Assembly (NCBI RefSeq): GCF_027942295.1
Contig: NZ_CP101416.1
Location: 2,086,001-2,150,000 of the forward strand
From: Pseudanabaena sp. Chao 1811
GTDB taxonomy: Bacteria > Cyanobacteriota > Cyanobacteriia > Pseudanabaenales > Pseudanabaenaceae
Direction of reading: 5' to 3'
Length of the DNA stretch: 64,000 bases
Shown in pieces: positions 27,115-29,479 of the stretch; the first letter of the stretch is position 1, and every line of letters begins with the position of its first letter. The notes below the pieces were generated by a model. The model saw nothing but the letters and a program-made list of their open reading frames with translations. It was not told the DNA's origin and did not search any database. The position numbers and the translations under genes are program-made.

Positions 27115-29061
27115 TTAGTTCGTTTTGATTAACTCCTGCACCCAGAATACAGCCGTAGCACTGAGAGCGGCGATTGTCCATTCAACCCCATTGAGAGGGA
27201 CGGTTGATATAATTTCGCCAAACCAAGGGATTTGGATAAACATAACTTGGCAAACAGTGATGAAGGATATGCCCAGTAACAATGGTAAGTTTCTTAAAAC
27301 CCCCTGACGGGCGATCGCGCAGGCATGGAAAACTTGACTGAAGACAAGGGTGATAAAAGCCATCGATCTCGCTTGGGAAAACATCGCCGCCTGTCCTTGA
27401 TACTTCAACCAAAAGACTAGGGAAATAGCCGTGATTGTGGCAGTGACCGCCAGCAAAATCCGTAGATAATTGCTAGGGCGTAACATCGTTTGAAAGCGTC
27501 GGGCAGGCTGGAATAATAGACTCTCATGGGTAGGTTCTAAGACTAGGGGAAAGGAGACAATCGGTGTAGCGATCGCACCAACCCAGATTAATTGCAACGG
27601 AGGAATCGAGAATCCTGCGGCAGTGTCCATTAAAGTCAAAACTGCCAAGGTAAAGGCACTAGAGGCAGTGATTAGGGCTGTGCGTTGAAGGCGATCAAAA
27701 ATGGCACGTCCTTCAAGAATGGCAATTGGTAAATAATGAAATTCTTCTTTGGGTAAAATCAGTCCCGAACTATCTTGCAATTCTTTTCGACAGGTGCGAT
27801 CGCAAATTCCTACATCTGCCAAGCGTAGTAGCGGAATATCTTCAATATCATTACCAATTACAGCAACTGCATCCATCGATTTGGGGCGATCGCCTTGCCA
27901 TTGGCGGATTCTCTCTTGTGGCGCATCAAAGTAGCTATGGGTTTCCACACCGATGACTTCCCCAAAGGCTTGAGCATCTTCTTCAGAAGTTCTCAATAGA
28001 CCTCGCCACTCTATCCCCGCTTGATGCAAATTATCAAAACTCAAGATCACATCTGATTCCAAAATTGGCACAATTGTTGTCACTCTCGCTAAAGCATCCA
28101 AAATCGATGGAAACCTCGCCCAGATCCTCTGTCTAGCGAGATCACGCATTCCTAACAACTGTACCTGAGTTGCCATCCGCAACAAATTTTGAGGATAGGT
28201 ACTAACGATTAAGGCAGCAGCAGTCATGGCATTGATGATAATTCCCCTATGCCATGCAAACGCGATCGCGATAATTGTTACTAATCCCAATAGATAGAGC
28301 CAGACTTGGCGCAGTTGACGTAGCTCAGCATGAATTGCTGAAAATGAGCGTTCTTTAATTAGTGAGATCTGTTCATAGGTGAAGCGTCCTGTAGCGATCA
28401 CCACGCCCTTAGCTGTTCCTGAGGAGATTTCTGTTCCTGCATAAATCATATTCCCTCGCTCAAGGGCTGGTGTATTCTCCTCAAAGCCCAGAACTTGCTT
28501 GGGACAAATTGCCTCACCCCCTAAATTAGTTTGATTAACTAGTAAGTCTTCTGATACCTCCAGCAGTCGGAGATCGACATTAGGGCGATCGCCTGCTTTT
28601 AAGATCAATACATCACCAAGGACTAAATCCCGTAATGGTAGTTCCATTTCTTCATGATCGCGTAAGACGATGACGGAATTAGAAGTCTCATATTGACGAC
28701 GCTGGGGGCGATCGCGACTAACTTTCTCTCTGGTTTTCATAGACCATAAAGAGATGCCAATTCCAATGCTTCCATGCAGGACTCCTACAAGGATCAATGC
28801 CCATCCTTCCGCTCCATTCCATTGTAAATAAGTTGCTGACCCCAGTAGCAAATAGGTCAAAGGATCGAGTAAAGGCTGTAAGAGAATTTTGCTAATAGGG
28901 CGCGATCGCGGTAGTTTATTTGCTCCCAAATGCCTTAATCTTTGCCTTGCATTGACATAGGATAAACCTTCTATCGAAGACTCTAAGGATGCCAATACCT
29001 GCTCAACATCCATATGATGCCAAGATTTTTGAGTGTCTGATAGAAAGTCAAATTTTGTCAT
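27115..29061 (-). CDS. Degenerate P2-type ATPase-like membrane protein (pseudoenzyme)
   Basis: 648 residues. The N-terminus is the cation-ATPase N-terminal domain (WHHMDVEQVLASLESS; VNARQRLRHLGANKLP). The actuator domain carries NLGGEA where LTGES is expected. The membrane segments are present (about M1-M4 before residue 310 and M5-M10 after about 470). The phosphorylation segment that should read CSDKTGTLT is replaced by IVPILESDVIL, so the catalytic Asp is lost, and about 250 residues of nucleotide-binding domain are missing. The GDGxND hinge is degraded to VIGNDIEDIPLL, though ADVGIC follows. The frame is intact from end to end, so it is not simply decaying. An autophosphorylating pump is excluded; a regulatory or channel role is a guess. 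Confidence 0.75.
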   Translation of the reverse strand: MTKFDFLSDTQKSWHHMDVEQVLASLESSIEGLSYVNARQRLRHLGANKLPRSRPISKILLQPLLDPLTYLLLGSATYLQWNGAEGWALILVGVLHGSIGIGISLWSMKTREKVSRDRPQRRQYETSNSVIVLRDHEEMELPLRDLVLGDVLILKAGDRPNVDLRLLEVSEDLLVNQTNLGGEAICPKQVLGFEENTPALERGNMIYAGTEISSGTAKGVVIATGRFTYEQISLIKERSFSAIHAELRQLRQVWLYLLGLVTIIAIAFAWHRGIIINAMTAAALIVSTYPQNLLRMATQVQLLGMRDLARQRIWARFPSILDALARVTTIVPILESDVILSFDNLHQAGIEWRGLLRTSEEDAQAFGEVIGVETHSYFDAPQERIRQWQGDRPKSMDAVAVIGNDIEDIPLLRLADVGICDRTCRKELQDSSGLILPKEEFHYLPIAILEGRAIFDRLQRTALITASSAFTLAVLTLMDTAAGFSIPPLQLIWVGAIATPIVSFPLVLEPTHESLLFQPARRFQTMLRPSNYLRILLAVTATITAISLVFWLKYQGQAAMFSQARSMAFITLVFSQVFHACAIARQGVLRNLPLLLGISFITVCQVMFIQIPWFGEIISTVPLNGVEWTIAALSATAVFWVQELIKTN

Positions 29062-29479
29062 GGTTTAATGCGTGGAACTTGCTATGGATAGCTATTGTTA
29101 TAGCAATCCTAAATGGTTTGTGGAAGCGTACCCCTTCGAGGTACGCTTCCACAAACCTAAAAATCTACAAATGATTTAGGACTGTTATAGTTGATTGGTT
29201 GTCAGCAAATTAATAAAGCCAAAATCTTCTTTAGTTTATAGCAATAAGCAGCTCACATAGCTTAAACCGATTGTGATGCTGCCCAAGTAGTGGACGGCAC
29301 AACAATTGTGGTTTTAAGCTTAATTTTGATGGTTGCAAATGAGCAAATAATTAGCTCAGGATAAATAACCTTGAAACCAAGAAATATGTTTCGCACGCGA
29401 AGCGTGCGAAACATATTTCTTGGTTCTCCCTTTGTGCTAGTATTGCCAACGCTTTGAGATGATTATGCTGAAATAAAAA
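29062..29479. repeat. Gap with MITE and long hairpin upstream of sfsA
   Basis: Holds the 91-bp MITE (29099-29189) and a 24-bp perfect hairpin with a GAA loop (29375-29425). The remaining sequence is AT-rich and should contain the divergent promoters. No reading frame is supported. Confidence 0.75.
29099..29189. repeat. 91-bp MITE, copy 2 (inverted)
   Basis: Same length and sequence plan as 17555-17645, in opposite orientation. Left end TATAGCAATCCTAAAT exact; right end has two changes (ATTTAGGACTGTTATA). Internal hairpin GGTTTGTGGAAGCGTACC / GGTACGCTTCCACAAACC. Confidence 0.85.

Follow-up and report, generated by a model that had tools for sequence, protein, structure and literature searches.

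P-type ATPases couple ATP hydrolysis tightly to ion binding, and the locus considered here raises the question of why a bacterium should keep a member of that superfamily which has no phosphorylation site. The window, ie the whole 64,000-nucleotide stretch of Pseudanabaena sp. Chao 1811 DNA that was analysed, contains on its minus strand a gene of 648 codons (Table 1). It was originally predicted to encode a P-type ATPase-like protein with a recognisable membrane scaffold and actuator domain, no DKTGT segment, no nucleotide-binding (N) domain and an altered GDGxND hinge, maintained by selection as a pseudoenzyme. The analysis below agrees with that description on each of these points. On the sequences compared, the protein is almost certainly a former P2-type (P2A-like) cation ATPase, now a maintained pseudoenzyme, whose N domain and phosphorylation strand would have been lost, most simply once, in an ancestor within the Pseudanabaena family.

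The predicted absence of any stop or frameshift was confirmed, since the gene is a single ATG-initiated frame, uninterrupted and without internal stops, and the corresponding frame of the plus strand has stops throughout. Three Pfam domains (Cation_ATPase_N, E1-E2_ATPase and Cation_ATPase_C) are matched above their cut-offs, covering the membrane scaffold and the actuator domain. Residues 311 to 488 are empty, with no Pfam-A match to an N or HAD domain. The four intact P2-type open frames in the same genome encode 884-978 amino acids, and the pseudo-ATPase is thus 236-330 residues shorter, which makes the shortfall of about 250 first estimated a fair figure. By profile comparison, residues 303-331, 346-372 and 380-468 are collinear with residues 315-343, 574-600 and 635-723, respectively, of an intact ATPase. 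By themselves the first two of these segments would be poor matches (E = 0.041 and 0.39); the third is strong (1.4e-9). Among PDB entries, ATP2C1 and SERCA match best (phmmer, 7.9e-29 to ATP2C1), and both alignments shown consist of two matching blocks flanking the gap. Within the N-terminal region, W14 and H15 are invariant in a 29-row alignment. The P-type ATPase subfamily model TIGR01494 gives 61.3 bits, slightly below its cut-off of 62.3. Taken together, the homologous actuator and membrane domains support descent from the P-type ATPase superfamily.

Table 1. Features of the pseudo-ATPase gene. Positions are those of the window.
Feature	Position	Strand	Basis
Pseudo-P-type ATPase gene, 648 aa, ATG start, one frame	27115..29061	-	Reading frame, Pfam, orthologues
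Cation_ATPase_N (residues 14-76)	28834..29022	-	Pfam, 2.2e-12
E1-E2_ATPase, actuator domain and M3-M4 (residues 127-311)	28129..28683	-	Pfam, 1.5e-22
TGE position, G181-G182-E183	28513..28521	-	Joint alignment; Thr lost in 30/30 orthologues
M4 motif YPQNLLR (residues 289-295), replacing PEGL	28177..28197	-	Joint alignment
Residues 332-345, where about 14 residues correspond to about 230 in intact ATPases (DKTGT and N domain)	28027..28068	-	Collinear profile segments, joint alignment
P-domain remnant (residues 313-462), without catalytic motifs	27676..28125	-	Profile (best segment E = 1.4e-9), alignment
Hinge GNDIED (residues 403-408), replacing GDGxND	27838..27855	-	Joint alignment
C-terminal membrane helices, Cation_ATPase_C (residues 488-646)	27124..27600	-	Pfam, 3.3e-22; M6 cation ligands replaced

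The fate of the individual motifs was followed by aligning 30 full-length orthologues jointly with 31 intact ATPases. Opposite the Asp and Lys of DKTGT all 30 orthologues have a gap, and the letters of the motif occur nowhere in their sequences. Several losses go beyond those originally predicted, ie the change of TGE to GGE and of PEGL to PQNL in the window protein, and the replacement of cation ligands in M5 and M6. The Thr of TGE has become Gly in 29 orthologues and Ser in one, and the position of its Glu is occupied by Glu (23), Asp (5), Gly (1) or Met (1). The letters TGE near residue 84 in two orthologues are a chance occurrence. The Glu of PEGL is replaced by Gln in 29 orthologues and by Lys in one. 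Five residues past the P of that motif there is an Arg in all 30 (Arg295), compared to Ala (26) or Pro (5) in the intact enzymes. The M6 Asn is Gly in every orthologue, and in place of the M6 Asp 29 have Thr and one has Met. Over all the tested cation-ligand positions the orthologues have Gln or Lys in M4; Ser, Ala or Leu and Leu, Ile or Thr in M5; and Gly, Ala or Val, and Thr or Met in M6. The first Asp of GDGxND, which reads GNDIED in the window protein, is replaced in 30/30 and the last is kept in 27, with Glu in the other three; the acidic positions of GNDIED hold Asp in 28/30, Glu in 26/30 and Asp in 27/30, counts in which 25 of the 30 rows come from one genus. The TGD segment, another loss beyond the original prediction, is apparently gone too: the letters TGD are absent from all 30, and the segment aligns as R-T-S-E within a profile segment that is weak alone (E = 0.39).

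By comparison, TGE, PEG, DK and GDG-ND are kept in 31/31 of the aligned intact ATPases, while the M5 and M6 ligands vary among them, the M6 Asp for example being found in 20 of the 31. Three further intact frames (L077, L095 and L097), which were included in the tree described below and kept out of the joint alignment, all carry DKTGT, TGE and GDGxND; L077 is without PEGL. Truncated or split intact ATPases (L102, L103, L104 and L114) were left out of both. The pattern in the pseudo-ATPase is far beyond chance and is common to the 30 full-length orthologues. From it we infer that the protein would be incapable of phosphorylation or cation passage at the canonical sites and of canonical ATP binding. 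Loss of the ion ligands disfavours a role in cation pumping, sensing or leakage by way of the canonical site. The ion sensor and leak channel suggested by the original prediction are accordingly less likely in that form, with the PEGL Glu and the M6 Asn replaced, and the M4 Arg fixed, in 30/30.

A search with a 29-row profile found the pseudo-ATPase in 34 of the 38 genomes of the order, all of which are coded as one family, with one match each below 1e-60. It is single copy in the window's genome. By genus the counts are 25/26 for that of the window, 1/1 for g2, 3/3 for g3, 1/1 for g4, 0/2 for g5, 1/1 for g6, 1/2 for g7 (cut by a contig end) and 2/2 for g8. Of the four genomes that gave no match, G006 has a completeness of 99%, which makes a true absence probable there, and G029, G007 and G034 are 77-85% complete. 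G006 also contains a P-type ATPase that is apparently in two pieces, with frames of 547 and 358 aa (L114). The g3 copies are short, with frames of 580 and 588 aa in two genomes. The third, in G002, is a divergent short orthologue in two overlapping frames of 128 and 496 aa (L101:2352-4132), and the smaller frame aligns with the beginning of the G004 copy at 45%; this two-frame state is possibly decay or an assembly error. The G003 copy has 26% identity with the window protein. A gene order common to G003 and G005, with genes that we take from their sequences to be of the pentapeptide-repeat and cysH-like types, supports the g3 copies as orthologues.

The search was extended outside the family to 291 genomes of the class (by protein) and 386 of the phylum (by profile), both being parts of larger groups, with at most 4 or 3 candidates scored per genome. 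No orthologue was seen among the matches listed from the profile scan of the 386-genome phylum sample. The matches listed cover one half of the protein, either ending by about residue 336 or starting at about residue 363, as do intact ATPases. Inspection of short frames covered L102, L103 and L104, all of which carry DKTGT, and not those of G294, G410, G065 and G068.

Selection on the gene was estimated by the Nei-Gojobori method from the 144 of 435 pairs of full-length orthologues with 0.05 < dS < 1.5. The median dN/dS is 0.081 (range 0.045-0.115). The other 291 pairs lie outside the dS limits and include the near-identical L014/L015, with a ratio of 0.47 at a dS of 0.004. In the divergent pair G003/G004, dN is 0.206 and dS 1.53. 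For six genomes of the genus the range of 0.045-0.115 can be set against 0.036-0.099 for three intact ATPases, a comparison in which not every intact ATPase is present in every pair and many dS values are above 1, a range in which they are uncertain. The two ranges are similar. With orthologues present and dN/dS far from 1, the outcome named beforehand as refuting a pseudoenzyme kept by selection did not occur. The pseudo-ATPase is often the less conserved, eg between G000 and G010 its identity is 69.6% and its dN/dS 0.108, compared to 81.7% and 0.070 for an intact ATPase. The loss of catalytic residues, together with the persistence of purifying selection, supports classification of the protein as a pseudoenzyme.

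Constraint was also compared region by region. Median regional dN/dS values are 0.103 for the N-terminus with M1-M2, 0.090 for the actuator domain, 0.045 for M3-M4 (120 pairs), 0.078 for the P-domain remnant and 0.076 for M5-M10 (143 pairs). A second contrast was made with one intact P2A-like pump, using raw proportions of nonsynonymous differences (pN) from 10 pairs among five genomes, ie few and related pairs. The median pN values for the pseudo-ATPase and the pump are 0.114 and 0.190 in the N-terminus with M1-M2, 0.148 and 0.078 in the actuator domain, 0.118 and 0.099 in M3-M4, 0.108 and 0.089 in the P-domain remnant, and 0.094 and 0.090 in M5-M10. The actuator is set apart by the pN contrast, whereas its dN/dS is not distinct from that of the N-terminal part. 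M3-M4 has the lowest dN/dS, yet its pN is above that of the intact pump.

The ancestry of the family was examined in a tree of 8 of the 30 full-length orthologues and 34 intact sequences, with the divergent genus g3 left out. The pseudo-ATPases form one side of a branch with an SH-aLRT of 100, their stem being 2.3 changes per column long. Because they form a single clade, loss of the enzyme is most simply taken to have happened once, a reading of the tree that falls short of proof. The point at which the clade attaches is not trustworthy, because long branches and odd composition were flagged (two pseudo-ATPase rows). The best NCBIfam score is that of TIGR01522, at 112.6 bits against a cut-off of 798.3, with TIGR01116 at 105.1 against 703.4. 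The second-best group is P3B, at 110.3 bits against 610.75. All are far under their cut-offs, so the scores cannot decide between P2A and P3B as ancestor. The TIGR01522 and TIGR01116 cut-offs are a weak test of membership, as several intact ATPases of these genomes likewise fall below them.

The original prediction had proposed looking for a conserved partner ATPase, and none was identified. Further P-type ATPase matches are present in all 34 genomes with the pseudo-ATPase and equally in all four without it, so that their co-occurrence is uninformative. In the window, ArsR and SulP genes lie downstream, an arrangement that recurs in 1 of 18 other gene-containing regions (L055), some of these regions being short. 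On its other side the pseudo-ATPase gene is divergent from a gene that is presumably sfsA-like, from its sequence. As an operon partner, a 446-aa protein with no Pfam match was considered (L053:9265-10602, minus strand). In 14/14 genomes of the genus that have this gene, it is the immediate upstream neighbour, in the same orientation and no more than about 130 nt away. A search at 1e-20 gives no match in 12 of the 26 genomes of the genus, the window's included, where a 551-aa frame is matched weakly and in part. It is distant in G005, on another contig in G001, and present without the pseudo-ATPase in G007. These absences, its distant location and its occurrence alone rule it out as an obligate partner. 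Further upstream is a gene for what we take, again from sequence, to be a DegT-type aminotransferase, and this looks like plain synteny. L020, L022 and L026 have apparent first codons of the 446-aa gene before the pseudo-ATPase gene, from which this neighbour has seemingly been lost there while the pseudo-ATPase stayed. No neighbour conserved across all genera was seen.

Two perfect inverted repeats were observed upstream of the gene in the window. One, at 29115-29157, has 18-nt arms and a 7-nt loop, lies about 53 nt before the start codon, and could be a 5' UTR hairpin of the pseudo-ATPase gene; its arm core has no second occurrence within the window. The other, at 29375-29425, has 24-nt arms and a 3-nt loop and lies between the pseudo-ATPase gene and the divergent upstream gene, and a 75-base query containing it matches a single place in the genome.

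What the protein does must be judged against several explanations. Decay of the gene, or a deletion introduced in assembly, could draw on the three members of g3, which are shorter and divergent, one of them (G002) lying in two frames. It is nevertheless most improbable, as the gene is present in 34/38 assemblies, dN/dS is about 0.08, and dN is far below dS even between G003 and G004. The sequencing deletion that was named beforehand as an alternative is refuted by independent assemblies which share it. In the window's genus, decay or assembly deletion is excluded by the orthologues and their dN/dS, and is possible in G002 alone. A split enzyme, in which the N domain and P strand are encoded separately and complement the protein in trans, would account for the partial retention of the P domain. 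There is no lone N domain in the window's genome, the matches to PF13246 being four frames which are all intact ATPases, and DKTGT and the TGE Thr have been lost as well; this explanation can be given hardly any weight.

Two further explanations deserve more attention, though both are unlikely. If the membrane domain were freed from ATP control, it might conduct or equilibrate a solute passively, perhaps an anion or a lipid in view of the M4 Arg. The membrane domain is indeed kept, M5-M10 is constrained about as in the intact pump, M3-M4 ranks lowest in dN/dS among the five regions, and the M4 Arg is fixed in 30/30. Against such a passive transporter or channel, the tested cation-ligand positions are replaced in M4, M5 and M6, and constraint on the P-domain remnant would be left unexplained. 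It is equally improbable that the protein is a sensor, in which the actuator and P-domain remnant would move when a ligand is present in the membrane or the cytosol and so pass a signal on to a partner. The cytosolic parts are retained, the acidic GNDIED could bind a divalent ion, and an excerpt of PMC6592433 proposes a regulatory role for the ATPase domain of a Toxoplasma cyclase. The actuator is, however, looser than in the intact pump, no output domain was found by Pfam, and no conserved signalling neighbour was seen.

The pseudo-ATPase probably does something other than pumping. We favour, tentatively, a role as a non-hydrolysing partner of another membrane protein over passive transport or sensing. 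A looser actuator with constrained membrane and P-domain regions is what would be expected if dephosphorylation had gone and those surfaces were still needed, and the observed constraint is compatible with their use in binding. The helices and P-domain remnant would dock onto a second membrane protein, for which an intact P-type ATPase is a plausible candidate, and would modulate or stabilise that protein. The M4 Arg would occupy the vacant cation site and keep the scaffold in a single conformation. Regulation of a real pump, as originally suggested, is possible. The whole statement, a maintained pseudoenzyme acting by this partner mechanism, comes close to an even chance. A more speculative proposal than either is that a free-standing bacterial P-type ATPase has been turned into a membrane subunit devoted to regulation or structure, in which an arginine acts as cation stand-in and locks the scaffold.

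If that proposal is correct, the family would be a P-type counterpart of the pseudokinases. The transport scaffold has been kept while the engine and ion ligands were dropped, suggesting that the remaining parts are useful on their own, and the protein offers structural work a natural N-domain deletion. There is also a warning for annotation, as a protein which passes three Pfam cut-offs may be called a cation-transporting ATPase.

No published description of the family was seen among the matches listed in the open-licence literature. The nearest known systems are the P2A Ca2+ ATPases of the PMR1, SERCA and LMCA1 type, which have the same order of N-terminal region, actuator, membrane and C-terminal helices; unlike them, the pseudo-ATPase is without the N domain, DKTGT, the TGE Thr, GDGxND and the cation ligands. 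The likeness to the P3B Mg2+ ATPases (MgtA type) is the second-best NCBIfam score, far under the cut-off. By description, replacement of the M6 aspartate is shared with the P6 ATPases (CtpE), which, according to the review PMC10654040, keep PEGL and are discussed as Ca2+ importers. The degenerate ATPase domain of Plasmodium GC-beta is P4-type, fused to a guanylate cyclase and found in a protist, whereas the pseudo-ATPase is free-standing, bacterial and P2-like, and has had its N domain removed.
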